A stretch of 41,047 bases of DNA from Prevotella sp. (GTDB lineage Bacteria; Bacteroidota; Bacteroidia; Bacteroidales; Bacteroidaceae): the NCBI GenBank assembly GCA_017538195.1, contig JAFYJH010000121.1, positions 1-41,047 of the forward strand. The letters run 5' to 3'. The position numbers and the translations under genes are program-made. Shown here piece by piece: positions 4,158-41,047 of the stretch (its first letter is position 1; the number at the start of each line of letters is the position of its first letter). Under the pieces are notes generated by a model that ran no database searches, was not told the origin of the DNA, and saw nothing but the letters and a program-made list of their open reading frames with translations.

Positions 4158-4218
4158 ATGAAGAATGAAAAGTGAAGAATGAAGAATATTTTTCTTTTTT
4201 ACCTTTTTACCCTTTTGC
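4158..4218 (+). repeat. Heptamer array ATGAAGA x4, then octamer-like TTTTTACC repeats, running into a gene start
   Basis: Four consecutive heptamers (ATGAAGA, ATGAAAA, GTGAAGA, ATGAAGA) fill 4158-4185. The start codon of the next gene (4179) is the ATG of the last heptamer. About 4193-4218 then reads TTTTTACC-type octamers that encode the signal-peptide core. Similar T/AACC octamers recur at 18181-18200 and 23802-23853. Confidence 0.75.
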
Positions 4219-4919
4219 CTTTGCAGATGCAGGCGCAGGTCGGCGAACATCGCAACGGACTCGCCGTCGGCGTGAATGGCGGCTACGCGCTGACCAACAT
4301 CGGCTTTGTGCCGAGCGTTTCGCAGGGATTTCACGGCGGTATGACGGGCGGTCTGACGATTCGCTATGTCAGCGAGAAATATTTCACTGCGATTTGCTCC
4401 GTGCAGGCCGAAATCAACTACACGCAAATGGGTTGGAAGGAGAAGATTCTCGACAGCGACGACCAACCTGTCATCAACCGTGTGACGGGACTTGCCGAGG
4501 AATACAGCCGCACGATCAACTACGTTCAAGTGCCCGTTTTCGCCCATCTCGCGTGGGGTCGCGAGCAGCGTGGCGCACAGTTTTTCTTTCAGGTAGGGCC
4601 GCAGTTCGGTTTCTATCTCAATGAAAGCACGAAGTCGAATTTCGAATGGAGCGAGCGCAACATGATTGACCGCGTGAATCCCGTTTGTGCGCAGGACACG
4701 ATGGCCGTCGAGCATAAATTCGACTACGGCATCGCCGCAGGCATCGGCCTCGAATATTCCGTTCCCCGAATCGGCCATTTCCAACTCGAAGCCCGCTATT
4801 ACTACGGCCTCGGCAACATCTACGGCGACACGAAGCGCGACTATTTCGCCAAGTCGAACCTCGGCAGCATCGTCTTCAAACTCGCGTGGCTGTTCGACCT
4901 GAAGCGCACGAAAAATTAG
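4179..4919 (+). CDS. PorT-family outer membrane beta-barrel protein
   Basis: 246 residues with a signal peptide (MKNIFLFYLFTLLPLQMQAQ) and alternating beta strands ending in an aromatic-rich strand (SIVFKLAWLFDLKR). The pattern (GLAVGVNGGYALTNIG near the start, YVQVPVFAHLAWG mid-protein, FDYGIAAGIGLEY, then LEARYYYGLGNIY) fits the Bacteroidota outer-membrane barrel family PF13568, also called PorT-like. Specific cargo or partner cannot be told. The start lies inside a heptamer repeat and the signal-peptide codons are made of TTTTTACC-like repeats, so the export signal seems to have been assembled from repeat DNA. It is likely cotranscribed with the LysM gene. Confidence 0.85.
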   Translation: MKNIFLFYLFTLLPLQMQAQVGEHRNGLAVGVNGGYALTNIGFVPSVSQGFHGGMTGGLTIRYVSEKYFTAICSVQAEINYTQMGWKEKILDSDDQPVINRVTGLAEEYSRTINYVQVPVFAHLAWGREQRGAQFFFQVGPQFGFYLNESTKSNFEWSERNMIDRVNPVCAQDTMAVEHKFDYGIAAGIGLEYSVPRIGHFQLEARYYYGLGNIYGDTKRDYFAKSNLGSIVFKLAWLFDLKRTKN

Positions 4920-4957
4920 GCTCTGATTTCCTAAAAATAAAATTTTTTTTCGTCGTT

Positions 4958-4987
4958 TGCAACTTTTTGGATGTTCGGTGCGTCTAA
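4958..4987 (+). promoter_or_regulatory. Probable ECF-sigma promoter (autoregulation)
   Basis: TGCAAC at 4958-4963 and CGTCTAA at 4981-4987 are separated by 17 bp, 25 bp before ATG 5013. The AAC -35 and CGTC -10 pair is the usual form for ECF sigma factors and differs from the house-keeping TAnnTTTG. Since the operon encodes an ECF sigma factor, autoregulation is the simple inference. Confidence 0.6.
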
Positions 4988-5012
4988 CAGTTGAATTAAC
5001 ATCAAAAAAGTA

Positions 5013-5693: not shown

Positions 5694-5706
5694 AAAACGG
5701 TCAGCG

Positions 5707-6237
5707 ATGGATGCCGGCGAACTCACTCTCTTGACACAGGTGACGGTGTTTCACAACAGGCGGGCTTTTGGTCGGCTTGTTGAGAAATACCAGTCGCCTA
5801 TTCGCCGGTTTTTCCTGAACCAGACGGGCGGCGACGAGCCGTTGAGCGACGATTTGGCGCAAGACACATTCGTGAAGGCGTGGCTCAACATTTCGACGTT
5901 TCGCGGTGCGGCGAACTTCTCGACTTGGCTCTATCGAATCGCCTACAACGTGTTCTACGACTACACGCGAAGCCATAAAATCACGGAGGAAATCGACCAA
6001 GTGGTGGCTCTTCGACAAGCAAGTTCGGGCGACACGGCGTTGCGACTCGACTTGCAGCAGGCACTGAGCATCCTCTCGCCCGCCGAGCGCAGTTGCATCA
6101 CGCTGCAAATGATGGAAGGACAGCCGATTGACAAAATCAGCGAAATCACGGAAATGGCCGAGGGAACGGTGAAAAGTCATCTTTCGCGAGGGAAACAGAA
6201 ACTGGCGATGTTTTTGAGGAAAAATGGTTACGGTTGA
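5707..6237 (+). CDS. RNA polymerase ECF-type sigma-70 factor
   Basis: 176 residues, normal for the ECF class. Region 2 is seen as FGRLVEKYQSPIRRFFLNQ...DLAQDTFVKAWLNISTFRG...FSTWLYRIAYNVFYDYTR (about 20-95), and region 4 as LSPAERSCITLQMMEG...ISEITEMAEGTVKSHLSRGKQKL (about 120-172). It redirects RNA polymerase to a private set of promoters. It sits between a DUF6249 membrane protein and a DUF5056 membrane protein that is a candidate anti-sigma factor. The TGCAAC-N17-CGTCTAA site at 4958 is a likely target. Confidence 0.95.
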   Translation: MDAGELTLLTQVTVFHNRRAFGRLVEKYQSPIRRFFLNQTGGDEPLSDDLAQDTFVKAWLNISTFRGAANFSTWLYRIAYNVFYDYTRSHKITEEIDQVVALRQASSGDTALRLDLQQALSILSPAERSCITLQMMEGQPIDKISEITEMAEGTVKSHLSRGKQKLAMFLRKNGYG

Positions 6238-6241
6238 AAAA

Positions 6242-6318
6242 TTAAAAGTTAAAAATTAAAAGTTAAAAATGACGCTTTTCGATTTGCATTTCTCACTTCA
6301 CACTCCACACTTCACACT
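6242..6318 (+). repeat. Two heptamer arrays between sigma and DUF5056 genes
   Basis: 6242-6269 is TTAAAAG/TTAAAAA alternating four times; 6291-6318 is four heptamers of the TCACACT type. A 29-bp stretch (6287-6315) recurs exactly, inverted, at 23108-23136, next to the same TTAAAAA-type array, so the whole composite block is present twice in opposite orientation 16.8 kb apart. Confidence 0.8.
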
Positions 6319-6336
6319 TCACAAAAAGAAAAGAAT

Positions 6337-6735: not shown

Positions 6736-6738
6736 ATA

Positions 6739-6816
6739 CGCCAGTTCGCGAATTGGCGTAAGTGATGGAAATCTCCCCAAAAAACGCTTAACGGACAAAT
6801 CGGTTAAGCGTTTTTT
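6739..6816. terminator. Double hairpin, bidirectional terminator between convergent genes
   Basis: First an imperfect 20-bp palindrome (6739-6758, CGCCAGTTCG...TTGGCG). Then AAAACGCTTAAC (6781-6792) pairs with GTTAAGCGTTTT (6803-6814), flanked by A and T runs, so it can end transcription on both strands. The stop codon of the minus-strand gene (6816-6818) touches it. Confidence 0.9.
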
Positions 6817-7583: not shown

Positions 7584-7588
7584 GCGTG

Positions 7589-8328: not shown

Positions 8329-8342
8329 GACTTTTGGGCTTC

Positions 8343-11707: not shown

Positions 11708-11761
11708 GTGTGGGTGTTGAAAAAAACTTCAGAAAAAGTTTTCAGATTTGGAAACTTTTGT

Positions 11762-11769
11762 TACCTTTG
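11762..11769 (+). promoter_or_regulatory. TACCTTTG promoter of the HigBA module
   Basis: Exact TAnnTTTG, ending 4 nt before ATG 11774. The expected transcription start coincides with the toxin start codon, so the toxin message may be leaderless. Confidence 0.65.
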
Positions 11770-11773
11770 CAGC

Positions 11774-12109
11774 ATGAAAGAGAGTAGAACAATATCGGCC
11801 TATGGCAAATACTTCAAGGATTTCATTGACTCACTAAGCGACGCTGAGGCGCGAAAGGTGTTTTATGTCATTGATATGCTGAAGACACAGGAACGCCTCA
11901 GTGCGAAGTTCGTGAAGTATCTGCGCGAAGAAATCTATGAGCTTCGGGCTGAGCACAGCGGAAATATCTTCCGGGTGTTTTTCATCTTCGACCGTGGAAA
12001 TATTGTGATGCTTTTCAACGGTTTCCGCAAGAAAACACAGAAAACCCCAGAGAGTGAGATAAAGAAAGCTATTCAACTAAAAAAAGAATATTATGAATCG
12101 AGGAAATGA
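11774..12109 (+). CDS. higB: HigB/RelE-family toxin (Gp49-like)
   Basis: 111 residues from ATG 11774. The fold signature is clear: SLSDAEARKVFYVIDMLKTQ, then KFVKYLREEIYELRAEHSGN, IFRVFFIFDRGNIVMLFNGF and KKTQKTPESEIKKA. These match the phage-derived Gp49-like/HigB group of RelE-type ribosome-dependent mRNA interferases. The order toxin-then-antitoxin and a coding overlap with the next gene are typical of HigBA. A longer frame starting at 11708 is not needed and would lie upstream of the promoter box. The module sits alone between two terminators. Confidence 0.9.
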   Translation: MKESRTISAYGKYFKDFIDSLSDAEARKVFYVIDMLKTQERLSAKFVKYLREEIYELRAEHSGNIFRVFFIFDRGNIVMLFNGFRKKTQKTPESEIKKAIQLKKEYYESRK

Positions 12110-12401
12110 CATTATGAGCGTTGATGAGATGATGGACGCTCGCTTCGGTGTTGAGGGCAGTGCAGAACGCGAAGCTTTCCGCAAGGAGGCTTATGCTTAT
12201 TGCGTAGGTCAAATTATCAGCGACGCTCGCAAACATGAGCGTGTGACGCAACAGCAACTTGCCGAGCGCGTCGGTACAAGTAAATCTTATATTTCTCGTG
12301 TGGAAAGTGGTCGTGTTGAACCTGGCGCAGGTTTGTTCCTTCGGATTCTGGGTGCGCTCGGTCTGCGCTTCGACGTGACGCATCGTATGGTCTTCGGATA
12401 G
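12093..12401 (+). CDS. higA: HigA-family antitoxin, XRE-type HTH
   Basis: 102 residues from ATG 12093, or 95 from ATG 12114. The first start overlaps the toxin gene by 17 bp; the second begins 4 bp after the toxin stop. Residues about 40-95 hold a Cro/C1 helix-turn-helix (ISDARKHERVTQQQLAERVG, TSKSYISRVESGRVEPG). It should neutralise HigB and repress the shared promoter at 11762. It ends in front of a terminator. Confidence 0.92.
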   Translation: MNRGNDIMSVDEMMDARFGVEGSAEREAFRKEAYAYCVGQIISDARKHERVTQQQLAERVGTSKSYISRVESGRVEPGAGLFLRILGALGLRFDVTHRMVFG

Positions 12402-12504: not shown

Positions 12505-14703
12505 TTACTCAATGTAATAGTCGAATTCGTCGTCGTCGAGCGATTCTTTTTCCTGTTTTTTCGGCTTCGGCAGTTCCTTCAACTGACCTTTTTCGTCGAA
12601 CATTCCGTAGGTCGTGCGCAAAACGGTGAACTCGGTGCGGCGGTTCAACTGGTTACATTCTTCCTGTTCTTTTCCGCTGAGATTCTGGATAAATTCCTCG
12701 CTCAGAACGTCGCCTTCTTTCAGGAATTTATGCTTCGAAGCCACTTTCTTGTTGATTCTCTTTGGTTTTTCCTTGCCATAGCCAACGGGCGTGAGTCGGT
12801 CGGCGGCGATGCCGTGCTCGATGAGGTAATTGACGACGCTTTCCGCGCGTTTTTGCGACAGCCGTTTGTTGTAGGCGGCAGAGCCTTTGAAATCGCAGTG
12901 GGCCGAGAGTTCGATGGTGACGTTGGGATTTTCGTTGAGCAGCGTGACGAGTTCGTCGAGGGCTTTCGTCGATTCGGGTCGCAGCGTCGCCTTGTCGAAA
13001 TCGTAGAAAATATTGTCGATGAGCACGGGCGCGGTAATCGACGCCAAGGGGAACTGAAGCGTGTATTCTTCGGACTCCTCAGCCTGTTCGACGCGCAGTT
13101 CTTCCTTGTGGTTCAGATAGCCCTTGCAGGTGGCGAGCATCACGTAGCTCACGCCGGGCGTGACGACGTATGTGAACGAGCCGTCGCTGCGTACGCTGAG
13201 TTTTTCGTTGGTGCCGTCGTCACCGACGAGATGCACCTCGGCGGCAGGCAGTTCGTAGCCGTCCATTTCATAGACCCAACCCTTGATGGCCTGCACGATT
13301 TCGGGATTGTCGAAGCTGTAGATGTGGTCCCAACCGCGTCCGTCGCCTCGATTCGAGCAGAAATAGCCTCGGTTGTACGGGCCTTCAAAGGTCATTCCAA
13401 AGTCGTCGGCCTGCGAGTTGAGCGGATAGCCGGGATGTTCGAGGATGTAAGTGTTGGGTGTTGAAGATTGGGTGTTGGATTTTTCGTTTCTCGTTCCTCG
13501 TTCCTCGTTCCTCGAAGGCTTCGCGATGAAAATGTCGAGACCGCCCATTCCGGCGTGGCCGTTGCTCGAAAAATAGAAGTCGCCGTTGGGTCGGAAGGCC
13601 GGAAACATCTCGTCGCCCGGCGTGTTGATAGGCTCGCCGAGGTTTTCGACACCGCCCATTCCGCTTGCTGTCAAGCGCACGCGCCAGATGTCGAGACCGC
13701 CTTTTCCGCCCGGCATATCGGAGCAGAAATAGAGCCATTGACCATCGGGCGAAATGGCGGGATGGGCGTAACTGGAAAGCGTGTCGTTGGAAATTTTGAC
13801 CTCCGTCGGCTTGCTCCACGACGCATCCGAGCGATTCGACTTCACGATTTCGGCAAATCGCGGACTGCTTGGGTCGGTTTTGCAGACGGTCAGGTACATT
13901 TCGCGTCCGTCAGCCGAGAACGAACACGCGCCCTCGTCGTAGTCGCTGTTCAAACCGCCTTGCACGACCTCTGGACGGCTCCATTTTCCCTTGTCGTCTT
14001 TTTCCGAGAAGAAAATGTCGCCCGGTTTCGTGCCCGTGATGCCGCTGAGTTCGTCGCCATTGGCTTCGTTGCGCGTCGAAGTGAAGTAAATTCGGTCGAA
14101 ATCGTCGCCGAAGAGCATCGGCGAATAGTCGGCGCGTCGCGAATTGAAAATTTCCATCTTTTTCACCGTGTAGCGCGAGCCGTTTTCTTTCCATTTCGGT
14201 GCATTTTGCGCCGATTCGATGCCGTTTTGCGTGAGCAATGCCTTGTCGGTCAACTTCCTAACTCCTTGACTCCCAGACTCCTTAACTCCTGACAAATACC
14301 ATTCGCCGCGAGCCGTCAGCGAGTCTTTCACGGCTTGAAATTCGGTCAGAGCCGCCTTGTATTCGCCGTTTTTCAGCAACAGTCGGGCGTAGGTGAGATG
14401 GTCGTCGAGTTCGGTCTGCTTGTAGCGGATGGCATTGCGATAGCCAGCCAAAGCCGCCTGAGTCTGGTTGATTTTCGCGTAGCATTTCGCCATTTTCAAC
14501 GCCCTTTGACCGCGTTTGTCGCGTTCTTTCGGCGGCGTGGTCTGATAGGCTTTCTTGAATTCCGTCGCGGCATCGAAATATTCGCCCAAAGCCAAGTATT
14601 TCTCGGCTTTTTTCAGGTGTTTGTCGCTGCCACACGCAGAAAATGCCGTGACCGCAACAGCCACGACGAGCAGACGGAATATCGCCGAAAATCTTTTCAT
14701 CAT
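12505..14703 (-). CDS. porE: PorE-like T9SS lipoprotein (TPR, beta-propeller, regulatory domain, OmpA)
   Basis: 732 residues (ATG 14703; 14700 also possible). Order: lipoprotein signal with Cys24 (AFSACGSDKH), TPR-like helices (about 30-125), PD40/WD-like propeller (about 170-470, repeats such as SPMLFGDDFDRIYFTSTRN, ISPDGQWLYFCSD, FRPNGDFYFSSNG), carboxypeptidase-regulatory-like domain (about 480-560), and an OmpA C-terminal peptidoglycan-binding domain (about 570-690, FYDFDKATLRPESTKALDEL, LSQKRAESVVNYL). This is the architecture of PorE (PG1058) in Porphyromonas gingivalis, a cell-wall-anchoring part of the type IX secretion system. Two repeat-derived insertions interrupt it (13451-13513 and about 14250-14289), both in frame. 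It follows topB by 40 bp. Confidence 0.88.
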   Translation of the reverse strand: MMKRFSAIFRLLVVAVAVTAFSACGSDKHLKKAEKYLALGEYFDAATEFKKAYQTTPPKERDKRGQRALKMAKCYAKINQTQAALAGYRNAIRYKQTELDDHLTYARLLLKNGEYKAALTEFQAVKDSLTARGEWYLSGVKESGSQGVRKLTDKALLTQNGIESAQNAPKWKENGSRYTVKKMEIFNSRRADYSPMLFGDDFDRIYFTSTRNEANGDELSGITGTKPGDIFFSEKDDKGKWSRPEVVQGGLNSDYDEGACSFSADGREMYLTVCKTDPSSPRFAEIVKSNRSDASWSKPTEVKISNDTLSSYAHPAISPDGQWLYFCSDMPGGKGGLDIWRVRLTASGMGGVENLGEPINTPGDEMFPAFRPNGDFYFSSNGHAGMGGLDIFIAKPSRNEERGTRNEKSNTQSSTPNTYILEHPGYPLNSQADDFGMTFEGPYNRGYFCSNRGDGRGWDHIYSFDNPEIVQAIKGWVYEMDGYELPAAEVHLVGDDGTNEKLSVRSDGSFTYVVTPGVSYVMLATCKGYLNHKEELRVEQAEESEEYTLQFPLASITAPVLIDNIFYDFDKATLRPESTKALDELVTLLNENPNVTIELSAHCDFKGSAAYNKRLSQKRAESVVNYLIEHGIAADRLTPVGYGKEKPKRINKKVASKHKFLKEGDVLSEEFIQNLSGKEQEECNQLNRRTEFTVLRTTYGMFDEKGQLKELPKPKKQEKESLDDDEFDYYIE
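13451..13513. repeat. Nine heptamers (63 bp, 21 codons) inside porE
   Basis: Uninterrupted heptamers: GTGTTGG, GTGTTGA, AGATTGG, GTGTTGG, ATTTTTC, GTTTCTC, then GTTCCTC three times. In the porE frame it encodes a hydrophilic RNEERGTRNE...TPNT peptide in a propeller loop. Nine times seven is a multiple of three, so the frame is kept. Confidence 0.85.
14250..14289. repeat. Octamer array inside porE
   Basis: CTAACTCC, TTGACTCC, CAGACTCC, TTAACTCC fill 14258-14289, with a further degenerate unit before them. It encodes SGVKESGSQGVRKL between the TPR and propeller parts. It is nearly identical (22 of 23 bases over the core) to the array in the PD40 lipoprotein gene at 16952-16983. Confidence 0.75.
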
Positions 14704-16603: not shown

Positions 16604-18178
16604 TTATTTATGAAGATGATTCACGTATTTCACAGGCGGAACATCGTCGTTTTTCAGGATGTCGGCAATCTGCTGAGGTTCGAGCGTGACAGGTCCGCGC
16701 ATGAATTCGGGAATGTTGTAGCTTTTCATGAACTGGCGATGATAGTCGGGGTCGGCGCAAGGCAGTTCAAAGGGCTTTGAAGCGTTGCCGTCCGCGTCGA
16801 TGTGGGCGATGAAGGGGCGGGTGTAGTTGCCGTCGGCGCGACGCGAGGAGAACACGACCCATCGGCCCGTGCTCGACCAAGTGTGATAGCTTTCGACATT
16901 GTCGGAATTGATTGCATCGAGCGGAAAAACTCTAAAATTTGTTGCATTTGTCTGGACTTCTGAACTCCCAGACTCCTGAACTCCTGCATTGCCGAGATCA
17001 ACCATCCACAGGTCGGCGTCGCGATGCCAGATGTGGAAACAGCCCCATTCGCCGACCGTCACCATCAGCCAGCGTCCGTCGGGCGAAATGCGCGGAAACG
17101 TGGCACTTTTTCCCATCGCAGCGGCATCGAAAACCATCTCTCGCGGTCCAAATTCGAGCGTTTCGGGGTCGAAACTCTTGCGATAGATGCTGTATTTGAT
17201 GTCCTTGTATCGGGCGACGGTTTCGCTCGTGTTCACCGTGTCGGCCTCGTATTCAAAATGGGCGCTGCCGTAGTAAAGAAAGCGTCCGTCGGGAGCCCAG
17301 AACGGGAAAATCTCGAACTCGTGCGGGTCGTTTTCGATGTTCATCACCTCGTTTCGCTCGACATCGTAAATGATGAGGTCGCTTTCGGAGTCGAGCACCT
17401 CGATTTTGTTCAAGTCGCGCGTGTGGAAACTCTGCATCGTCTTGTTCGTGGAGTAGGCGATGAGTTTCAGCCACGGATGCCACGAAGGATAGACGCCGGC
17501 GGCGAGAATCGAGTCGTTTTTCATGTTCACCTTCTTATATTCGCCGTCGTAGGCGACGAAAGTGCCGCCGTGCTTCTGACGGGCGTGGAACTGGAACCGC
17601 TCGGGATTCTGCTGCTGATAGTTGTGGCAATTCACGCACTGGCCGTCGATTTCGTCGCTGCACAGCATATTGTTCACCATGACGCGCTCGTCGTAGTTTT
17701 CGAGGCATCGCTGGTTGAGCGTGAGTTCCTCGTAGGTGACATACGAGGGCGAAATCAGTCGATAGCTGATGTAAGGGTCGATGGAGTCGGGCGAAACGTG
17801 GATTTGGAAGGGCTTGAAAAGCGTCCATTTTCCGTCGTTTTCGCCGAAAACTTCGACTTGAATCGCCTTGCTTTTGGCTTTTTCGGCGAGTTGTTTCCAC
17901 TGGTCGATGTCGGGACAAGCCTTGAGGTCGTCGCCACCGCAGACGATTTCGTCGCCGTCGAAACTGTAGCGAGCCACCATCTGCGTGAAAGAAGTCTTTT
18001 TCGCAGGCGACGGCAGCAGTTCAAACGTCAGCGGCGCAATGTTCACCGGCACGGTTACATCGACGTAGTCGGGATAAATCTCGGGCAATTCGTCGCTTTT
18101 GGCGTATTCCGTCGGCACAGTCGCCTGTTTGCAGGCGGCGAACAGCACGACGATGCTTAGAATCAGATATTTTTTCAT
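16604..18178 (-). CDS. PD40 (TolB-like) propeller lipoprotein with one CxxCH motif
   Basis: 524 residues. Lipoprotein signal MKKYLILSIVVLFAAC (Cys16), then an N-terminal beta domain, then TolB/PD40 blades (YPSWHPWLKLIAYSTNKT, FPFWAPDGRFLYYG, FPRISPDGRWLMVTVG, YHTWSSTGRWVVFSSRRADG). Cys181-Val-Asn-Cys-His185 is a c-type heme attachment motif, in a cysteine-rich patch (LCSDEIDGQCVNCHNYQQQ). Homologues in Bacteroidales are described only as TolB-family or cytochrome-like proteins; function is unknown. The DUF6057 gene ends 20 bp upstream of its start and topB follows 18 bp downstream. An octamer array (16952-16983) is inserted in frame. Confidence 0.75.
   Translation of the reverse strand: MKKYLILSIVVLFAACKQATVPTEYAKSDELPEIYPDYVDVTVPVNIAPLTFELLPSPAKKTSFTQMVARYSFDGDEIVCGGDDLKACPDIDQWKQLAEKAKSKAIQVEVFGENDGKWTLFKPFQIHVSPDSIDPYISYRLISPSYVTYEELTLNQRCLENYDERVMVNNMLCSDEIDGQCVNCHNYQQQNPERFQFHARQKHGGTFVAYDGEYKKVNMKNDSILAAGVYPSWHPWLKLIAYSTNKTMQSFHTRDLNKIEVLDSESDLIIYDVERNEVMNIENDPHEFEIFPFWAPDGRFLYYGSAHFEYEADTVNTSETVARYKDIKYSIYRKSFDPETLEFGPREMVFDAAAMGKSATFPRISPDGRWLMVTVGEWGCFHIWHRDADLWMVDLGNAGVQESGSSEVQTNATNFRVFPLDAINSDNVESYHTWSSTGRWVVFSSRRADGNYTRPFIAHIDADGNASKPFELPCADPDYHRQFMKSYNIPEFMRGPVTLEPQQIADILKNDDVPPVKYVNHLHK
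16952..16983. repeat. Octamer array inside the PD40 lipoprotein gene
   Basis: CTGGACTT, CTGAACTC, CCAGACTC, CTGAACTC. It encodes AGVQESGSSEVQ, next to porE's GVKESGSQGV. Same element family at 14250-14289. Confidence 0.75.
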
Positions 18179-18198
18179 ATTTTTTTACCTTTTTACCT

Positions 18199-20112
18199 TT
18201 AAAAACTATGCTGTCCTCGCGTGAAGAAATAATCGTAGTAGAACGTGCCGCCGAAACGGTCGTACATCAGTTTTTTCAGTTCCGGCTCGGGCAGACTCTT
18301 GAATTGCTGCGCCGTCGCCATGAAGTTGTTGTAGTTGTCGATGACCTCCTTGTCGAAAGGCATGTGGCCGATTTCAACGTCTTTTTCGAGGTGTCCGTAG
18401 AGGTAGGCGGCCTCCTGCAAATGCGTGGGCATGTGCTTCCTGCCGAGGCTCGGACCGTAGTTGTAGAACTGGCTCCAGAAGGTCTTGATGTCCTTCGTCT
18501 GCATGGCGAAAAGCATGGCCTGCTCTTGGAAAATCGGGTCGTCGCTGTAGTGGTGGGCGAAATGGTTGATGAGGAAGATTTCGATGAGCGACTGGTCGCT
18601 CGTGATGTCGTTCACGGGCGGCATCAGATGAGAAATCACGGAAAGTTCGGGGTCTTTCTCGATGAGTTTCGGATTGGCGATGTACGCCTCGTATTTCTCG
18701 CCCATTTCAGCGTAATATTTCGTCTTTTTCAGCAAATCGACGTATTTTTTCGCCACGTCCATCTCGCCGTTGAGCAGCGAACTTTTCAGCATGAAAATCA
18801 GGTGCTCGACGCGCCATCCAAGTTCCACGCCGTCCTCCATGCACCAGCGATAGCAATAATTGACGAGGCCGTAGTTGAAGTAGATAAACCGACCGCCGCA
18901 CTGCGTCATTCGGGCGATGAACGGCGCATTCGGAGGCGTGTCGCCGTTGCGGTAGCGATACATTTCGTCGCCCTGCCTGCCGAGTCGCGAAAGGGCCAGA
19001 TTTTTCATCATCCACATTGTGCGCGAGGGCGCAGCGTCGTGCTCGCGGTAGGTCGTCAGAATGTCCTCCCACTGCTGGCTGACGGCACTGCGATACATGG
19101 AAAGTTCGGTGTGGAAATTCTCGTCCTTGTACCAGAAATGCCAGACGCTCGCGACAATCACAGCCAGTAGAACGACCTGCGAAAATGCCCATTTTGTCGG
19201 TTTTTTTACTTCGGAATCGCGATTTTTCCGATAGAAAAAGGCCATTGCGACGAGCGAGGCGAAAAGCAGGATGAAGGGAATGTAGTAAGCGAAATAGAGT
19301 TTGTCTTTCTTGAAGAACGGAAGGCCCGTGTTGTAGATATTGACGATGTTCGTCTGGTTGTAAATCGTCCAGTAATAGACAACCGGCACGACGGCGATGG
19401 CAACGAGCGCAACCGCCGTGTCGATGCCGCTGCGAAGCGGTTTGTAGTCGTCGAGTCGCCAAGCCAGAATCGCCATCAGCAGGGCGGCGAAAAGGGCGTA
19501 GAATCCGAACAAAGGATAGCCGACGGCGACAACGACAACGATGAAAATCGTGCGCAAGAAGAATTTTTCGGGCAAGAGCCGATAAAGCCACGCGAGTGCA
19601 ACGGCGACGGTCGTCGCGATGGGGACGTTGAAGAAGTGGCCGTGCTGTTTCAGGTAATAAATCCAATAGCCCAAATCGGCGTTGATGAGAATGGCGAGCG
19701 ACAACGGAACAAGCAATGCTACCGTCCATTTTTCCGGAATTTGGAACGCTTTTTTGATGACGAACACCATCAGCAGCCACCACGCGCAGAGCATCGCCAC
19801 GCCCAAGGTTGGATGGTAGAAAAACTGCGTGAAATAGGTGCCGAGATAGGTGAGAAAACCGCCTACAAGCACCAATTTCTGCTTGAAAAACAGCGAGGTG
19901 TAGAGGAACAAATTGAGTTCCTGCACCCGATGGAGCAGGTCGTTTTCGTAACTGACGAGCACAATGCCAACAATGGCAACCATCGCGACTGGCAACAGCC
20001 ACGAAATCCATCGCAGCGTCTTTTCCGACAGCCTCAATGGTGTTTTGGCGGCAGCCTTTTTCTGATGAATGTTTTGCCGCTGTTTTTGCTTTGGATTTTG
20101 TTTCTTATTCAT
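18199..20112 (-). CDS. DUF6057-type multi-spanning membrane protein
   Basis: 637 residues from ATG 20112; GTG 20121 is an upstream alternative that touches the stop of the preceding gene. The N-terminus is very basic (MNKKQNPKQKQRQNIHQKK), followed by about ten hydrophobic spans up to residue 320, then a soluble helical half of TPR-like character (about 340-637). This architecture and its place beside a TolB-like lipoprotein match the DUF6057 family of Bacteroidales; I assign the family from memory of the pattern. Activity is unknown. TTTTTACC octamers fill the gap to the next gene. Confidence 0.65.
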   Translation of the reverse strand: MNKKQNPKQKQRQNIHQKKAAAKTPLRLSEKTLRWISWLLPVAMVAIVGIVLVSYENDLLHRVQELNLFLYTSLFFKQKLVLVGGFLTYLGTYFTQFFYHPTLGVAMLCAWWLLMVFVIKKAFQIPEKWTVALLVPLSLAILINADLGYWIYYLKQHGHFFNVPIATTVAVALAWLYRLLPEKFFLRTIFIVVVVAVGYPLFGFYALFAALLMAILAWRLDDYKPLRSGIDTAVALVAIAVVPVVYYWTIYNQTNIVNIYNTGLPFFKKDKLYFAYYIPFILLFASLVAMAFFYRKNRDSEVKKPTKWAFSQVVLLAVIVASVWHFWYKDENFHTELSMYRSAVSQQWEDILTTYREHDAAPSRTMWMMKNLALSRLGRQGDEMYRYRNGDTPPNAPFIARMTQCGGRFIYFNYGLVNYCYRWCMEDGVELGWRVEHLIFMLKSSLLNGEMDVAKKYVDLLKKTKYYAEMGEKYEAYIANPKLIEKDPELSVISHLMPPVNDITSDQSLIEIFLINHFAHHYSDDPIFQEQAMLFAMQTKDIKTFWSQFYNYGPSLGRKHMPTHLQEAAYLYGHLEKDVEIGHMPFDKEVIDNYNNFMATAQQFKSLPEPELKKLMYDRFGGTFYYDYFFTRGQHSF

Positions 20113-20120
20113 ATTTTTCA

Positions 20121-21068
20121 CTAATCACTAATCACTTCCCACTTGTAGGTGTCGTAGCAAATCGCCCGACCGCCAAAGCCCTCTTTCTGATAGATGAGCG
20201 ACTCGTGGAGTTCGCCGTTGGGCAGATTCGAGGTGCCAAAATCGAAGAAATCGACTTGCGGAAAAGCCTCGTGGAGCAGATGGTCGATGATGACATCGAC
20301 GGCGTGGAGCCGCCTGCCCTCGTCCGATGCCGAAATATATTGCGTATGAACCGCCTGCCGAGCGACATAGAGCACCGTTGCGCCAATCATCTGACCCGTC
20401 GGCGCGTAGGCCGCCCACAACTGGATGTTTTTCGGGAATCGCCGATGGAGCAGCGTGATTTCCTCGAGCGAGTGGACGGGTTTCGCCTCGTGTCGTGTCG
20501 AGAGATTTTCGGTGAGAATGGTCCAAAAAGCCTTGAAATCGTCGCTCTGGCGCACTTCGACGCCCTCGTTTCGGCCTTTGTTGACGGCATATCGACGGAA
20601 ACTCTTCCACTTGACGGGTCGCTGCGGAATGATGGCCGACGACACGTTCCGACTCACCAATTTCGCCCGACATTTCAGGAAAATCGCGAAAAGATCTTCA
20701 TCGGAAGGCAGGCTGTGGAAAACGCGCGGAACGGGCTTGTAAACGACGCGGCGGATGCCCTGCGCACGCAAAAAATCGTTGATTTCGCCGAACAACACGC
20801 AGACTTTTTCCGTCGTGGCCTCGGCAGACATCACCAAGCCGCCGTAAGTCAGTCCCTGATGGCTGTAAAGCGCGCCGTCACGCTCGTTGGCAGGCAGCAG
20901 CGCGTAGAGCGAACCGTCGAGATAGCACAGCAGCGAATGGTCGCGGAATCGGTCGGAATGGTAGTCCATATAGCCGCGATCGAAGAGGAAAGTTCCGTTC
21001 TTCGACTGCGCCACGAATCGGTTCCATTCGTCGGCTTGATCGGCGGTGTATCGTCTGATGTCAAACAT
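20121..21068 (-). CDS. FemAB/GNAT-like acyltransferase
   Basis: 315 residues. The opening FDIRRYTADQADEWNRFVAQ, then SKNGTFLFDRGYMDYH, the mid-protein LWAAYAPTGQMIGATVLYVA and the late FFDFGTSNLPNG match the GNAT-fold FemAB-like proteins that sit in polysaccharide loci. It probably transfers an acyl or aminoacyl group to a sugar or cell-wall precursor. It overlaps the fdtA-like gene by 8 bp, so the two are surely coexpressed, and the pair suggests work on a deoxy-amino sugar. The final codons (WEVISD, stop) are encoded by a CACTAAT heptamer array at 20119-20146. Confidence 0.75.
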   Translation of the reverse strand: MFDIRRYTADQADEWNRFVAQSKNGTFLFDRGYMDYHSDRFRDHSLLCYLDGSLYALLPANERDGALYSHQGLTYGGLVMSAEATTEKVCVLFGEINDFLRAQGIRRVVYKPVPRVFHSLPSDEDLFAIFLKCRAKLVSRNVSSAIIPQRPVKWKSFRRYAVNKGRNEGVEVRQSDDFKAFWTILTENLSTRHEAKPVHSLEEITLLHRRFPKNIQLWAAYAPTGQMIGATVLYVARQAVHTQYISASDEGRRLHAVDVIIDHLLHEAFPQVDFFDFGTSNLPNGELHESLIYQKEGFGGRAICYDTYKWEVISD

Positions 21069-22601: not shown

Positions 22602-23102
22602 TTAGTTTTTAATTGAATGATCTAATGTAATAACTTCACAATCCGTCATTTTATTGCCTTCGACCGTCAATCTTATTAAAGTTCGGTCTTTGTGCCAGCC
22701 TTGCAAGCCCGCCGCACCCGGATTGATGTGCAGCAGATTCAGCGTTTTGTCGAATTTCACCTTGAGAATATGCGAATGGCCTGCGATGAAAAGTTGCGGC
22801 GGATTGGCGTAGATTTGCCCTCGGATTCGCGGGTCGTAGTTGCCCGGATAGCCGCCGATGTGGGTCATCAGAACATCGATATCCTCGCATTTCCAACGCA
22901 GCAGTTCGGGGTACATCAACCGCAGGTCGCCACCGTCGCAGTTGCCACAGACGGCCCGAAGCGGACGGAATTTGGCCAGTCGGTCGGCCACTTCGGTCGA
23001 GCCGATGTCGCCTGCGTGCCAGATTTCGTCGCAAGGCTCGAAATAGTGCAGGTATTTGTCGTCCCAATAGGCGTGGGTGTCGCTCAGGATTCCGATTTTC
23101 AT
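22602..23102 (-). CDS. YfcE/MJ0936-type metallophosphoesterase
   Basis: 166 residues, normal for the family. Metal-binding motifs in order: GILSDTHAYWD, HAGDIGS, AVCGNCDGGD, LMTHIGGYPG, AGHSHILKV and HINPGAAGLQG. It is a calcineurin-like phosphodiesterase with manganese or a similar metal; the natural substrate is not predictable. It sits 6 bp ahead of rfbB and 43 bp after the cytidylate-kinase-like gene, the latter gap filled with heptamer repeats. Confidence 0.92.
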   Translation of the reverse strand: MKIGILSDTHAYWDDKYLHYFEPCDEIWHAGDIGSTEVADRLAKFRPLRAVCGNCDGGDLRLMYPELLRWKCEDIDVLMTHIGGYPGNYDPRIRGQIYANPPQLFIAGHSHILKVKFDKTLNLLHINPGAAGLQGWHKDRTLIRLTVEGNKMTDCEVITLDHSIKN

Positions 23103-23107: not shown

Positions 23108-23163
23108 GTGAAGTGTGGAGTGTGAAGTGAGAAATGTTTTAATTTTTAATTTTTAACTTTTAA
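23108..23163. repeat. Inverted copy of the composite heptamer block of 6242-6318
   Basis: GTGAAGT, GTGGAGT, GTGAAGT, GAGAAAT followed by TTTTTAA-type heptamers. 23108-23136 is the exact reverse complement of 6287-6315. It also encodes the last residues (KLKVKN, stop) of the cytidylate-kinase-like protein. Confidence 0.8.
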
Positions 23164-23760: not shown

Positions 23761-23773
23761 AATATTTTTATAG

Positions 23774-23853
23774 TTTACAGTTGAGAGTTGAGAGTTGAGA
23801 GTTTTTTTAACCTTTTAACCCTTTAACTCTTTAACCTTTTAACTTTTTAACCT
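23774..23853. repeat. Heptamer array TTGAGAG followed by TTTTAACC octamers
   Basis: TTTACAG then TTGAGAG three times (23774-23801), then about six TTTTAACC/CTTTAACT octamers to 23853. The second array runs into the MATE gene and encodes its last residues (KKVKKLKG, stop at 23831). TTGAGAG also forms the array inside the ABC permease at 39607. Confidence 0.8.
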
Positions 23854-27393: not shown

Positions 27394-28665
27394 ATGAAAG
27401 TTTTAATGTTTGGATGGGAGTATCCTCCTCACGTTTTCGGCGGATTGGCGACGGCCAACTACGGCATTTCGCAGGGACTTCACGCGCAGGGCGACATCGA
27501 AACGGTGCTCTGTCTGCCGCATCCCTTCGGCGACGAAGACCGCTCGGCCTGTAAAATCGTGGCGATGAACGCCGTGCCGATTGCGTGGCGCGATGTCAGC
27601 CACGACTACGTGCAGCAGCGCGTCGGCAGCATCATGTCGCCCGACGATTATTTCCGCTATCGCGACCATATCTACGCCGATTTCAACTACATGCACGTCA
27701 ATGACCTCGGCGCAATGGAGTTCGCAGGCGGCTATCCGGGCAATCTGCACGAGGAAATCAACAATTATTCGATTATCGCAGGCGTTGTGGCGCGCACGGA
27801 GGAGTTCGACATCATCCACGCCCACGACTGGCTGACCTATCCCGCCGGCATCCACGCGAAAAACGTCAGCGGAAAACCGCTCTGCATCCACGTTCACGCC
27901 ACGGATTTCGACCGCTCGCGTGGAAAAGTGAATCCGACGGTCTATTCCATCGAGAAAAACGGCATGGACAACGCCGACTGCATCATGTGTGTGTCGGAAC
28001 TGACGCGCCAGACCGTCATCCACCAGTATCATCAGGATCCGCGCAAGTGCTACACGGTGCACAACGCCGTCTATCCGCTTGCACAGGAACTTCAAGACAT
28101 TCCGCGTCCCGACCACACGGGCAAGGAGAAGGTCGTCACGTTCCTCGGTCGAATCACGATGCAGAAAGGTCCCGAATACTTCGTCGAGGCTGCCAATATG
28201 GTGCTTCACCGCACGCGAAACGTCCGTTTCTGCTTCGCAGGTTCTGGCGACATGATGGAGCAGATGATCTATCTCGCTGCCGAGCGTGGCATCGCCGACC
28301 GCTTCCATTTCCCCGGTTTTATGCGTGGGAAACAGGTCTATGAGTGCCTGAAAGACTCCGATGTCTATGTGATGCCGTCGGTCAGCGAGCCGTTTGGCAT
28401 CTCGCCGCTCGAAGCCATGCAGTGCGGTACGCCGACGATCATCTCGAAGCAGTCGGGATGCGCCGAAATCCTGCACAACTGCATCAAGGTCGATTACTGG
28501 GACATCCACGCGATGGCCGACGCCATCTATTCGATTTGCGTCAATGAGTCGCTGTTCAAATTCCTTCAGGAAGAGGGCAAGCGCGAGGTCGATCAGATCA
28601 CTTGGGAGAAGGTCGGCAAGTGGATTCACACGCTGTACCGTCGCACCCTCGGCTGGACAGAATAA
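27394..28665 (+). CDS. Glycogen-synthase-like glycosyltransferase (GT4/GT5 type)
   Basis: 423 residues, GT-B fold. N-terminal nucleotide-sugar loop KVLMFGWEYPPHVFGGLATA, DIIHAHDWLTYPAGI mid-domain, then VVTFLGRITMQKGPEYFVEA and PSVSEPFGISPLEAMQCG with the catalytic Glu pair. In this operon it most likely elongates glycogen from a nucleotide-glucose donor, as does the usual Bacteroidales glycogen synthase; donor choice is not visible. It follows the debranching enzyme by 16 bp. Confidence 0.9.
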   Translation: MKVLMFGWEYPPHVFGGLATANYGISQGLHAQGDIETVLCLPHPFGDEDRSACKIVAMNAVPIAWRDVSHDYVQQRVGSIMSPDDYFRYRDHIYADFNYMHVNDLGAMEFAGGYPGNLHEEINNYSIIAGVVARTEEFDIIHAHDWLTYPAGIHAKNVSGKPLCIHVHATDFDRSRGKVNPTVYSIEKNGMDNADCIMCVSELTRQTVIHQYHQDPRKCYTVHNAVYPLAQELQDIPRPDHTGKEKVVTFLGRITMQKGPEYFVEAANMVLHRTRNVRFCFAGSGDMMEQMIYLAAERGIADRFHFPGFMRGKQVYECLKDSDVYVMPSVSEPFGISPLEAMQCGTPTIISKQSGCAEILHNCIKVDYWDIHAMADAIYSICVNESLFKFLQEEGKREVDQITWEKVGKWIHTLYRRTLGWTE

Positions 28666-28722
28666 ATTGAAAAATGAATAAATTGAAAAATAAATTGTAA
28701 ATTGTAAATAGTCAAATTGTCA
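28666..28722. repeat. A/T-rich 7-8 bp tandem units before the GH57 gene
   Basis: AAATTGAAAAATGAAT-type units, then AAATTGT, AAATTGT, AAATAGT, CAAATTGT up to the ATG at 28726. Part of the scattered short-unit repeat family; low complexity makes the unit borders less certain. Confidence 0.55.
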
Positions 28723-28725
28723 ATT

Positions 28726-30120
28726 ATGAAAACGATCTGTTTATATTTCGAGATTCATCAGATTATCCATCTGAAACGCTACCGTTTTTTCGACATCGGT
28801 AGAGACCATTATTACTACGACGACTACGAAAACGAGCGCAGCATCAGCGACATCGCCGAGCGGTCGTATATGCCGGCGCTGAACACGCTCCACGAGATGA
28901 TCAAGGAGAACGGCAAGTATTTCAAAGTGGCGTTCTCGCTCTCTGGCGTGGGCATCGAACAGTTGGAAATGCACGCTCCGCAGGTGCTTGAGAAGTTGCA
29001 GGAAATGAACGAGACGGGCTGCGTCGAATTCCTCGCCGAACCCTATTCTCACGGCCTTTCCTCGCTCATCAACGAGGAGAGTTTCAAGGCCGACGTGAAG
29101 AAGCAGATGGCGAAAATGAAGGAATATTTCGGTCAGACGCCGAAAGTCCTGCGCAATTCGTCGCTGATTTACTCCGACGACATCGGCCTCATCGCCTCGC
29201 AGATGGGCTTCAAGGGAATGCTCACCGAGGGCGCGAAGCACGTGCTCGGATGGAAGTCGCCGCACTACATCTACCATTGCGCCCTTGCGCCGAACTTGAA
29301 GTTGCTGTTGCGCGACGTGAAACTGTCAGACGACATTTCGCTGCGCTTCAACAACCCCGAATGGGAAGGCTATCCGCTCTTCGCCGACAACTACGTGAAC
29401 GAAATCGCGTCGCATCCCGAAGCCAGCCAAATCATCAACATTTTCATGGAACTTTCCGCGCTCGGCATCGCTCAGCCGCTGTCGTCGAACATTCTGGAAT
29501 TTTTGCGGGCGATTCCGGCCTGTGCGAAGGCGAAAAACATCACGTTCTCGACCCCGACCGAGATTTACATGAAGACCAAGAGCGTCGGTGCGCTCGACGT
29601 GCCCGACACGCTGTCGTGGGTCGATGAGGAGCGCGATGTCAGCTGCTGGCTCGGCAATCCGATGCAGCGCGAGGCATTCCAGAAACTCTATGGCGTGGCC
29701 GACCGCGTGCGCATTGCCAACGACCCGAAAATCAACCTCGACTGGGACTATTTGCAGGCCGCCGACAACTTCCGTTTCATGACGACGAAGCCGTCGAATG
29801 TCGGGCTCGACCGAGGCATTTACAGTTCGCCCTTCGATGCGTTCACGAACTACATGAACATCCTCGGCGACTTCCTGAACCGCGTCAATCGGCTCTATCC
29901 CGAGGAAATCGACAACGAGCAACTCGAGTCGCTGCTGACCACGATTCGCAACCAGAGCGACGAAATCGAGCGCAAGGACAAGGAAATCACGCGACTTCGT
30001 GCGATGATTGACAAATTTGAGTCGAAAAAGGGTGGTGAAACTGCCGAAAAACCTCAGAAGAAAGCCGCCGCAGCGCGTCCGAAACCTGCTGCGAAGAAAA
30101 AAGCCGCGCCTGAAAAGTAA
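28726..30120 (+). CDS. Glycoside hydrolase family 57 alpha-amylase-type enzyme
   Basis: 464 residues from ATG 28726 (an in-frame TTG at 28717 is not needed). GH57 conserved regions: FEIHQIIH near the start, GCVEFLAEPYSHGLSS, MLTEGAKHVLGW with the probable nucleophile Glu168, and LSDDISLRFN with the acid/base Asp at 202 or 203. It should hydrolyse or transfer alpha-glucan chains, with the debranching enzyme and the synthase encoded upstream. From about residue 405 there is a coiled coil and then a Lys/Ala/Pro-rich tail (KKAAAARPKPAAKKKAAP), which is unusual for the family. A terminator follows. Confidence 0.93.
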   Translation: MKTICLYFEIHQIIHLKRYRFFDIGRDHYYYDDYENERSISDIAERSYMPALNTLHEMIKENGKYFKVAFSLSGVGIEQLEMHAPQVLEKLQEMNETGCVEFLAEPYSHGLSSLINEESFKADVKKQMAKMKEYFGQTPKVLRNSSLIYSDDIGLIASQMGFKGMLTEGAKHVLGWKSPHYIYHCALAPNLKLLLRDVKLSDDISLRFNNPEWEGYPLFADNYVNEIASHPEASQIINIFMELSALGIAQPLSSNILEFLRAIPACAKAKNITFSTPTEIYMKTKSVGALDVPDTLSWVDEERDVSCWLGNPMQREAFQKLYGVADRVRIANDPKINLDWDYLQAADNFRFMTTKPSNVGLDRGIYSSPFDAFTNYMNILGDFLNRVNRLYPEEIDNEQLESLLTTIRNQSDEIERKDKEITRLRAMIDKFESKKGGETAEKPQKKAAAARPKPAAKKKAAPEK

Positions 30121-34207: not shown

Positions 34208-34211
34208 AACG

Positions 34212-36426: not shown

Positions 36427-36518
36427 TACTTTTGCGCCTGGAAGTTGTTTTTTAGGAAATACATATTCTTTTAAAAATCGTTTTTTAGGAAATACATTTT
36501 TAGTCAAAAATCGTTTTT
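36427..36518 (+). repeat. Promoter box and 33-bp tandem repeats before the AAA ATPase gene
   Basis: The gap 36243-36560 holds the res terminator, A/T-rich DNA, a TACTTTTG box (36427-36434), and then two copies of a 33-bp unit starting GTTTTTTAGGAAATACAT (36447, 36480) and ending AAAAATC, with a truncated third start at 36513. The copies lie between the likely transcription start and the ATG at 36561. Confidence 0.7.
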
Positions 36519-37766: not shown

Positions 37767-37800
37767 GGATTTTGTAATGAAGAGTGTGAAATAGATTTCT

Positions 37801-38904: not shown

Positions 38905-38990
38905 CTCTTTAATAATTATTCCATATTTCGGCTGCGAAATTACGCATTATTTTATATAAAAACGAATGATTTGACATAAAATAATCATAC

Positions 38991-40031
38991 TCAGTTATTC
39001 TTCTTGTAACTTTGAACAGCCCAAAATCCCATGACTGAGCCGATGCTGAACAGGGCAAGCACCTGATGGGCGATGCTACGGAAGTCGCCGCCACGCACGA
39101 AAACGGTGCGGATGGCATCGATGAAATAGTGCATCGGATTGATGTAGGTGGTCAGGTATGCCCACGAGGGCATGGAGCGCGTCGGGGTGAAAAGTCCGCT
39201 GAGGAGGAGCATACAGACAACGAAAAACCACATGACGAAGATGGCTTGCTGCATCGTGTCGCTGTAGTTGGAAATGATGAGGCCGAAACTGCTGAAAAAC
39301 AGTGCCAAAAGCATCGCGAGAACGTAAATCCAAAGGATAGGACCTTGGCAGGTGATGCCGTAAATCGCCCACGAAAGCACGAGGCAGACGGTGATGAGAA
39401 AGAGGGCGATGAGCCAGTAGGGAATGAGTTTGGCGAGGATGAAAGCCCATTTCGGCACGGGCGTGACGTTGATTTGTTCGATGGTGCCCGTTTCTTTTTC
39501 GCCGACGATGTTAAGGGCAGGCAGGAAACCTGTCATCAGCATGATGAGAATGGCAAAAAGGGCGGGAATCATGAAGACTTTGTAGTTTTGCCCTTTATTA
39601 TACAAGTTGAGAGTTAAGAGTTGAGAGTTGAGAGTTGGCTGGCGCGATGCTACTATCTGACTCAAATACGCTGAACCGATTGCCCCTTTTGTGCCATTGA
39701 CGGCATTGGCGGCGATGAGAATTTTGTCTTCTTTGATTTCGAGAATGATGTCGGTTTTCGAGCTTTCAATGTCTTTCAGGGCTGCTTTGTAAGTCGGCTT
39801 CAGACCGTTAAAAATAAAGTAGTTCGAGGCTTCGATGCGATGGACAAGTTGCTGCGAAGCGGTCGAGCGGTCGTTATCGACGACAGTCACGCGAATATTT
39901 TTCACTTCCTGATTCATCACCCACGGCATCACGCACATCATCATCATAGGGAAAACGACGATGAGCTTCGGCAGGAACGAGTTGCGGCGAATCTGCAAGA
40001 ATTCTTTTTGTATCAAATATTTTATCATCAT
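38991..40031 (-). CDS. ABC-2 type transporter permease
   Basis: 346 residues, starting ATG 40031 which overlaps the stop of the upstream permease by 4 bp (ATGA). One N-terminal span, a large extracytoplasmic domain (about 45-165) and five C-terminal spans (GFLPALNIVGEKETGTIEQI, NVTPVPKWAFILAKLIP). This matches YhhJ/YbhR-type half-exporters. With the second permease it probably forms a heterodimer, with the ATPase encoded outside the window. A TTGAGAG heptamer array (39607-39634) supplies an in-frame PTLNSQLLTLN stretch in the extracytoplasmic domain. Confidence 0.9.
   Translation of the reverse strand: MMIKYLIQKEFLQIRRNSFLPKLIVVFPMMMMCVMPWVMNQEVKNIRVTVVDNDRSTASQQLVHRIEASNYFIFNGLKPTYKAALKDIESSKTDIILEIKEDKILIAANAVNGTKGAIGSAYLSQIVASRQPTLNSQLLTLNLYNKGQNYKVFMIPALFAILIMLMTGFLPALNIVGEKETGTIEQINVTPVPKWAFILAKLIPYWLIALFLITVCLVLSWAIYGITCQGPILWIYVLAMLLALFFSSFGLIISNYSDTMQQAIFVMWFFVVCMLLLSGLFTPTRSMPSWAYLTTYINPMHYFIDAIRTVFVRGGDFRSIAHQVLALFSIGSVMGFWAVQSYKKNN
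39607..39634. repeat. Heptamer array TTGAGAG inside an ABC permease gene
   Basis: TTGAGAG, TTAAGAG, TTGAGAG, TTGAGAG. Same unit as the intergenic array at 23781-23801. It encodes part of QPTLNSQLLTLNLYNKG. Confidence 0.8.
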
Positions 40032-41047
40032 TCGAGTCGTGTTTTGAATTTCTTAAGAGATACACCGAGCAGAAAGAGCGTCATCGCGGAAAGAATGATG
40101 ACTTCGCGAGCGATTTCCCCGATTCCCACGCCCATAATCATCAGTTTGCGCATCGCTTCGATGTAGTAGCGAGGCGGAACGATGGCGGAAACGTATTGCA
40201 AAACTCGGGGCATCGACTCGATGGGGAACATCATACCTGAAAGCATCACGATGGGCACGAGCAACACCATCGCCGACAGTAAAAGTGCCATCAACTGGCT
40301 GTTGGCGATGTTTGAAATCAGCAGTCCGAGCGAGAGCGCAAGCAGAATGTAGATGGTGGAAACGAAGTAAATCCACACGATGGAACCGGCCAATGGCACG
40401 TCGAGTACAAAGCGTCCCATCAGGAGAATCGTCGTGAGGATGACGAAGGCCAGCACGAGGTAGGGAATGACTTTGGCGACAATAATCATCAGGGGTTTTA
40501 CCGGCGAAACCAACAAGACTTCCATCGTTCCGCGCTCCTTTTCGCGAACAATTGAAATCGAGGTCATCATCGCGCAAATCAGCATCAGAAGCATACCCAT
40601 AATGGCTGGAACGAAGTTGTAGGCCGAGCGCATTTGTGGGTTGTATAGCAGTTTGGTGTTGATGGTTGATAGTTGATGGTTGGAAATTACGCCCGTGGCG
40701 TAGTTTGTCCATTGCTGCGCCATATTCGGGTCGGCACCATCGACCATGATTTGCCAAGTTCGTTGCGTTCCGTAGCTTTTTGGAGAGGGAATCAACGCCA
40801 TGTCAACCTTTTGATTGCGTATCAGTCGCTCGGCCTCTTGTGGTGTGGCGACGGTTTTCACGATGGTGAAATATTCCGATGCAGCGAGCCGCTCGATGTC
40901 GGCTTGTGTCTGGTGGTCCATCTGCGAAATGACGACCACCGTCCGCACGTTTTTCACGTCGTTGGTGATGGCGAATCCGAAAAGCAGCATCAATACGACC
41001 GGCATACAGAAGAGAATCAGCATCGTGCGCGTGTCGCGCAGAATGTG
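40028..41047 (-). CDS. ABC-2 type transporter permease (N-terminus beyond window)
   Basis: The frame stays open to the right edge (HILRDTRTM before Met 41023), so the true start is outside. 340 residues are visible: first span LILFCMPVVLMLLFGFAITN, extracytoplasmic domain, then five spans (SISIVREKERGTMEVLLVSP, VKPLMIIVAKVIPYLVLAFV). It is a sister of the next permease and coupled to it by ATGA. A heptamer array (40653-40687) lies in frame in the extracytoplasmic domain, in the equivalent part to the array of its sister. Confidence 0.9.
   Translation of the reverse strand, partial: HILRDTRTMLILFCMPVVLMLLFGFAITNDVKNVRTVVVISQMDHQTQADIERLAASEYFTIVKTVATPQEAERLIRNQKVDMALIPSPKSYGTQRTWQIMVDGADPNMAQQWTNYATGVISNHQLSTINTKLLYNPQMRSAYNFVPAIMGMLLMLICAMMTSISIVREKERGTMEVLLVSPVKPLMIIVAKVIPYLVLAFVILTTILLMGRFVLDVPLAGSIVWIYFVSTIYILLALSLGLLISNIANSQLMALLLSAMVLLVPIVMLSGMMFPIESMPRVLQYVSAIVPPRYYIEAMRKLMIMGVGIGEIAREVIILSAMTLFLLGVSLKKFKTRLE
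40653..40687. repeat. Heptamer array TGATGGT inside the second ABC permease gene
   Basis: TTGGTGT precedes as TTGGTGT at 40653-40659, then TGATGGT, TGATAGT, TGATGGT and TGGAAAT. Five units, 35 bp; it encodes ISNHQLSTINTKLL. Confidence 0.75.

Follow-up and report, generated by a model that had tools for sequence, protein, structure and literature searches.

The short tandem repeats named STRR in cyanobacteria have heptamer units, and Rickettsia palindromic elements (RPE), which have a long palindromic body, insert in frame into protein genes. Here, short arrays of 7-bp and 8-bp tandem units were found throughout a 41,047-bp contig of a Prevotella sp. assembly (GCA_017538195.1, contig JAFYJH010000121.1, our C154; "the window" means this whole stretch), and the repeated words were found to be common to many loci of the same genome. 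The array class itself is already known in bacteria, including Bacteroidetes. In Table 2 of Mrazek and Huang (2014; PMC4060949) the Bacteroidetes median class is 0.75 for tandem heptamers and 0 for 4-, 5-, 6- and 8-mers, and TAACTGA heptamer arrays were reported from five Bacteroidetes, as well as from Beggiatoaceae and cyanobacteria (MacGregor, 2015; PMC4679880). According to PMC4679880 and PMC4692102, Mrazek and co-workers suggested slippage in steps of 7 nt as early as 2007. The original prediction, made from the window alone, stated that no family like this was known from Bacteroidota and that a shared generating mechanism, by copying or slippage in 7- or 8-bp steps, would be new; the first statement is not supported by these papers, and a 7-nt step had already been put forward.

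Like the arrays described here, the heptanucleotide simple sequence repeats of PMC4060949 have a 7-nt unit, occur above chance and are over-represented in Bacteroidetes genera, and the 7-nt slippage step was proposed for them too (PMC4679880, PMC4692102). However, PMC4060949 counts exact repeats of any unit and, in the part consulted, reports neither a vocabulary specific to a genome nor a preference for TGA nor an association with Y1 transposases, and its zero median for 8-mers differs from the octamer excess in the window's genome. The TAACTGA repeats also lie mostly at gene junctions, are sometimes absent from the corresponding gaps of close relatives, are accompanied by other heptamers and contain TGA, but they have one fixed unit, whereas 28 distinct units were found in 499 kb of the window's genome. 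TAACTGA was the unit of none of the 69 heptamer arrays in that sample and had no two-copy occurrence in it. In Xanthomonas and Nostoc, the repeats GGGAATC and GGGGA(C/T)T also form heptamer arrays between genes that vary in copy number, but these are G-rich and quadruplex-capable (PMC4692102), whereas 22 of our 28 units have at most three G or C. Repetitive extragenic palindromic (REP) sequences with their RAYT transposases (PMC3733652) are also short and dispersed, and Y1 genes co-vary with array load here, but a REP-type palindromic body of 20–40 bp was not found in our arrays, as five joined copies of a unit fold no better than permuted units. Genome-specific word sharing between loci, the TGA preference of the genus and the association of array load with Y1 gene count are apparently new; a search that was not aimed at vocabulary and was made mostly without subscription papers gave no publication on heptamer words specific to one genome or on a Y1 link.

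Arrays were detected from lag identity, with +1 given for a match and −2 for a mismatch, and were called at a score of at least 10. In the window, 11 arrays of period 7 were found, compared to 0.07 expected from 60-bp local shuffles and 0.13 from codon shuffles (30 of each), and three arrays of period 8, compared to 0.03 in shuffles. The remaining periods from 4 to 13 gave at most two arrays each, and periods 14, 16 and 21, which are echoes of 7 and 8, gave nine, four and three. Tandem Repeats Finder placed the arrays at the same positions. The genome's rmlB protein showed up to 94% identity to rumen Prevotella-type bins. The assembly (2.35 Mb, 83% complete, 181 contigs) was further sampled by 40 pieces, 34 of which, not selected for arrays, make up an unbiased sample of 413,953 bp together with the window; the other six (contigs C67, C117, C9, C12, C13, and C14) had been picked for known arrays and were excluded from the period spectrum, but stay in the counts of vocabulary and location (the 499-kb sample). 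Outside the window (372,906 bp), 52 arrays of period 7 and 20 of period 8 were found, with no more than four for any other period from 4 to 13 (four each at 9 and 10) and nine at period 21; the whole unbiased sample gave 62, 21, 5, and 9 arrays at periods 7, 8, 9, and 21. Seven nucleotides is thus the commonest long unit, and tandem units within the 5–11 nt range exceed chance. The predicted genome-wide excess at 7 and 8 was therefore present, and the flat spectrum that would have spoken against it was not seen. The median copy number was about 4.5 units, and arrays spanned 19–68 bp in the sample. In a set of 80 named loci (1.37 Mb; labels mostly Prevotella or Bacteroidales, some Fibrobacter), 96 arrays were found at period 7, 31 at 8, 25 at 9, six at 6 and one at 5. 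Nine of the ten units named in the original prediction were recovered (score at least 8, consensus at most one letter off), the exception being CTGAACTC, which fails the scan.

The units differ from each other, as first noted, but they are drawn from a shared vocabulary that is specific to the genome. The 69 heptamer arrays of the 499-kb sample use 28 units, and 89 pairs of loci have the same unit, compared to 16.1 pairs when units were permuted and 3.4 with random local heptamers. The fraction of identical units was 0.038 within the window's genome, 0.099 within genome G351 and 0.143 within genome G238, compared to at most 0.003 between genomes. Unit vocabulary is thus common to the loci of one genome and not between genomes. 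TGA was present in 19 of the 28 distinct units, compared to 7.0 after permutation (z 5.5), in 13 of 19 units of an earlier, smaller set from the same genome (4.9 expected; 0 of 1000 permutations) and in 23 of 57 units of the named loci (15.0 expected; 8 of 1000 permutations). No such preference was seen in octamers (11 of 35 distinct units compared to 10.2 permuted) or at periods 9 and 11. Within the genus (60 genomes), four TGA triplets at spacing 7 had more matches than the reversed control in 42 genomes, fewer in 12 and equally many in six (7096 matches compared to 3884). As a rule for the phylum this was rejected, since TGA was higher in 126 genomes and the reversed control in 124. TGA is therefore a dialect, used in this genus and in some others; G351 and G238 were selected for high TGA counts and are no independent test of the rule.

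Comparison of five sites with their orthologs showed arrays in 1–4 of 19–29 relatives, nearly always with a different word; relatives here are the matches listed (30 or 25 per search) rather than every genome. The gap between the two ABC permease genes, which overlap in the window, was at most 12 bp in 16 of 28 same-genus species and contained heptamer arrays (score at least 12) in four, of TTCAATG words in L102 and L105 and of TCAATCT words in L109 and L112. The gap between the MATE and cytidylate-kinase genes is 70 bp in the window, with one heptamer and one octamer array; it was at most 12 bp in 6 of 19 named loci, and arrays (score at least 12) were found in two (heptamer in L004, octamer in L010). 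The loop of the permease encoded at 38991–40031 differed in sequence in all 29 relatives, two of which had arrays of their own (heptamer in L124, octamer in L125), and the loop of the second permease had an array in one of 28 relatives, again of a different heptamer (L105). Both loops have 15 residues in the window and are no longer than those of most relatives (12–35 and 15–32 residues), so that array sequence has taken the place of other loop sequence. In porE (12505–14703; NCBIfam T9SS_PorE, 1112 bits), the loop at site 1 (13480–13514) comprises 28 residues and exceeds in length that of 23 of 24 relatives (9–14 residues in 16 of them); one relative (L218) has a different heptamer array there. 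Near porE site 2 (14261–14290), relative L213 was found to contain a 114-bp heptamer array, which encodes repeats of the seven residues KRQEARS and, after them, a stretch rich in lysine. Tolerant sites thus gain arrays again and again, and the words differ from species to species. The prediction that the arrays are lineage-specific was borne out, as same-genus homologs had no such residues or other sequence at these sites and none with the same residues was seen. Its term "insertion" fits the porE loop, but plain insertion into the permeases was rejected because loop length was unchanged. In-frame insertion like that of RPE would match porE site 1 but not the two permeases, and the long palindromic body of RPE has no counterpart in tandem arrays that are not palindromes.

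The arrays were found to occupy gene junctions and variable protein loops. Only 25 of 69 heptamer and 2 of 27 octamer arrays lay more than 30 bp inside a mechanically called open reading frame (ORF), and ORF calls cover 92% of the 499-kb sample; arrays are therefore depleted in genes, and the earlier estimate that about half lie in coding sequence was too high genome-wide. Neighboring arrays within 120 bp of each other made up 18 pairs, compared to a mean of 18.7 for random placement in gene gaps, so that their clustering reflects scarce tolerant space and requires no further cause.

These results support the predicted shared generating process, in the form of one genome-wide process with a step of 7 or 8 bp. 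Our best explanation, to which we give about an even chance, is that these are simple-sequence arrays of heptamers, and in this lineage also of octamers, that turn over by slippage in steps of 7 or 8 nt, with a vocabulary that comes from a second, non-local process. Arrays would lengthen by duplication that recurs at a favored step of 7 or 8 nt, most likely through replication or repair slippage, typically to four or five copies; they would come and go between species and persist at tolerant sites such as junctions and variable loops. Slippage of this kind accounts for the period, for the tandem arrangement and for array turnover among species. It explains neither the shared vocabulary nor the unchanged permease loops, and a second process is needed for this reason, which may supply or select the seed words, either by dispersal of short seeds that are then expanded or through a trans-acting, sequence-specific enzyme. 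Several observations weigh against this explanation. Slippage at each site by itself predicts arbitrary words, and the words are not arbitrary. Mutations in TGA arrays were unevenly distributed over the seven columns (p 4e-5 in the window's genome, p 5e-6 in the named loci), which is not expected under slippage and neutral mutation. Heptamer units in five copies fold no better than permuted units and octamers if anything worse, and self-folding of units as an aid to slippage was rejected. The slippage step was deduced and not directly observed, and why the step is 7 or 8 rather than 6 stays unexplained by it. Finally, the unchanged length of the permease loops is not expected from simple expansion, and our confidence is lower because of this.

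As array-rich and array-poor sister genomes occur within single genera, gene families were compared between them, with heptamer load measured as the number of matches to a pattern of four triplets spaced by 7, either all TGA or all reversed (a count that includes overlapping matches of one array and registers only words with one of these two triplets). Across the phylum (296 genomes), the number of Y1_Tnp (PF01797) genes correlated with heptamer load (rho 0.51; partial correlation controlling for genome size 0.47; z 4.9 when permuted within families and 3.4 within genera, the latter in 158 genomes of 21 genera), while the control family DDE_Tnp_1 did not (rho 0.01). These data would suit Y1 (HUH, REP-associated) transposases that work in trans on single strands of DNA, seeding or spreading the arrays, with the words of a genome given by its enzyme set, but we consider this unlikely. 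The replicate within the genus (60 genomes) was weaker (rho 0.30, p 0.02; size-partial 0.24, p 0.06), 14 of 86 genomes without Y1_Tnp had at least 50 matches, e.g., G238 (635) and G209 (486), 9 of 25 such genomes of the genus had at least 100, and arrays were not denser near 20 hand-picked Y1 genes of rich genomes (two in 22.8 kb near, seven in 51.7 kb far). RVT_1 showed no link, being present in 6 of 15 rich and 6 of 15 poor genomes, and reverse transcriptases were rejected as a cause, as was loss of MutS (present in 30 of 30). A REP-like hairpin, TCGGC-N3-GCCGA, was found inside TTGAATT arrays; at five of its six intergenic places an array is no more than 100 bp away. Hairpins flanked G351 arrays more often than control points (4/31 compared to 6/197, p 0.03), but not arrays of the window's genome (12/96 compared to 27/346, p 0.16; with stems of at least 7, 2/96 compared to 4/173) or of the named loci (9/127 compared to 111/1231, p 0.62), and hairpins as a general feature of arrays were rejected. 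The Y1 tests are correlations between genomes, and we regard the association as a lead. A broader form would be a trans-acting, sequence-specific writer of 7- and 8-nt words in Bacteroidota, plausibly tied to Y1 HUH transposases, which plants or rewrites a genome-specific vocabulary (TGA-bearing in this genus) de novo at junctions and loops, the arrays being the trace of the enzyme and not of passive slippage; we hold it to be somewhat less probable still. 

That the arrays are dispersed repeats copied as blocks between loci, by gene conversion or as small mobile composites, is about as improbable as seeding by Y1 transposases. Same-word arrays of one genome often have exact stretches in common, and when 25-bp flanks were included, stretches with at least two irregular positions were shared by 25 of 327 same-word pairs within the window's genome, compared to 3 of 636 pairs between it and the named loci (30 of 394 among named loci, some of them orthologous). 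Although this suggested copying, shared unit order without flanks in the same 327 pairs (12) was not above that obtained by shuffling units within arrays (9.5), so that block copying of ordered units was rejected and loci share mostly words. Exceptions are the TCGGC-N3-GCCGA composite, a dispersed element of GGAGTTA words with short hairpins at four sampled loci, and a 25-bp exact match in the window between the array at 6290 and the block at 23108–23137. Selection of arrays as frame-independent translation stops, with a stop triplet in all three frames of one strand because 7 and 8 are coprime to 3, seems less probable again. Heptamer arrays overlapping a stop codon closed the frames of the gene strand in 38 of 40 cases, which is partly so by construction, and of 50 arrays strictly after the stop, 20 were closed only on the gene strand and eight only on the other (p 0.04), but this is a modest bias that rests on crude ORF calls and was absent in the window's genome alone (five compared to four). 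Moreover, of 55 heptamer arrays within genes, 29 have TGA in antisense, so that it is favored where no stop function is possible and is not maintained there for termination; the evidence being weak and partly circular, this explanation was rejected. An artifact of the metagenome bin, which the incomplete and fragmented assembly might suggest, is very improbable, as same-genus genomes in one to three contigs (G010, G016, and G045) contain 93, 12, and 34 TGA-array matches and arrays inside ORFs of the sample leave the frame open (24 listed).

The TCGGC-N3-GCCGA hairpin within TTGAATT words was found in L082 (40–182, three close copies), L085 (2628), L096 (15750), and L149 (5868). The GGAGTTA element, with the core AGTTCGCTGCGCTCACG, was found in L087 (9638–9787), L092 (4468–4618), L084 (15019–15155), and L094 (1209–1355); one pair showed 91% identity over 151 bp and another 83% over 149 bp. 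The window's genome contains two Y1 genes, in L163 (2057–2398) and L164 (2172–2510), with contig ends about 1.4 and 0.3 kb away and REP-like palindromes downstream (AATGCCTACGGCATT and GTGCCGAAGGCAC).

The arrays of the window are listed in Table 1. Of the two claimed for porE, one was detected and the other is weak and below the scan threshold. Besides, a 33-bp direct repeat (36447–36518; 2.2 copies, 87% matches) lies directly 3′ of a gene that by eye is a putative type III restriction helicase-subunit gene, and two small adjoining genes (11708–12401), also judged by eye, form a putative toxin-antitoxin pair (RelE/HigB-like and helix-turn-helix).

Table 1. Tandem arrays of 7-bp and 8-bp units in the window, with their genetic context.
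Position	Strand	Array	Context
4157..4187	+	heptamer AATGAAG, score 12	between LysM/periplasmic-binding gene and beta-barrel gene; start codon 4179 within array
4189..4216	+	octamer TTTTTACC	encodes part of N-terminal hydrophobic stretch of beta-barrel protein 4179–4919
6237..6268	+	heptamer TTAAAAA/G, score 16	immediately 3′ of ECF sigma gene
6290..6323	-	heptamer TTCACAC	ahead of ORF at 6337; first units recur beside 23108
13480..13514	-	heptamer GAACGAG	within porE; peptide SRNEERGTRNEK
14261..14290	-	weak octamer-like, GGAGTTAA words; period 8, score 39, fails scan	within porE
16952..16986	-	highly degenerate octamer CTGAACTC; Tandem Repeats Finder score 35, 70% matches; fails scan	within PD40 gene
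18182..18200	-	octamer TTTTTACC, score 11	junction ahead of PD40 gene
20118..20136	-	heptamer AGTGATT, score 12	covers 3′ end of gene 20121–21068
23108..23133	-	heptamer TTCACAC, score 10	ahead of gene 22602–23102 (putative phosphodiesterase-like, by eye)
23137..23163	-	heptamer TTAAAAA, score 17	3′ end of cytidylate-kinase-like gene
23767..23803	+	heptamer GTTGAGA, score 21	MATE to cytidylate-kinase junction
23805..23851	-	octamer GGTTAAAA, score 24	3′ end of MATE-family gene
28691..28709	+	heptamer TAAATTG, score 12	between genes 27394–28665 and 28717–30120
39605..39637	+	heptamer GTTGAGA	within ABC-2 permease 38991–40031; peptide PTLNSQLLTLNL; loop variable in relatives
40658..40682	+	heptamer GTTGATG	within second ABC-2 permease; peptide SNHQLSTIN

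An old count, that heptamers are common in bacteria for a cause not known, becomes with these results a testable question on word sharing and on a single-strand transposase. Gene junctions are rewritten by the arrays, as are loops in proteins for secretion and transport, which would alter operon spacing and protein surface in common gut bacteria.

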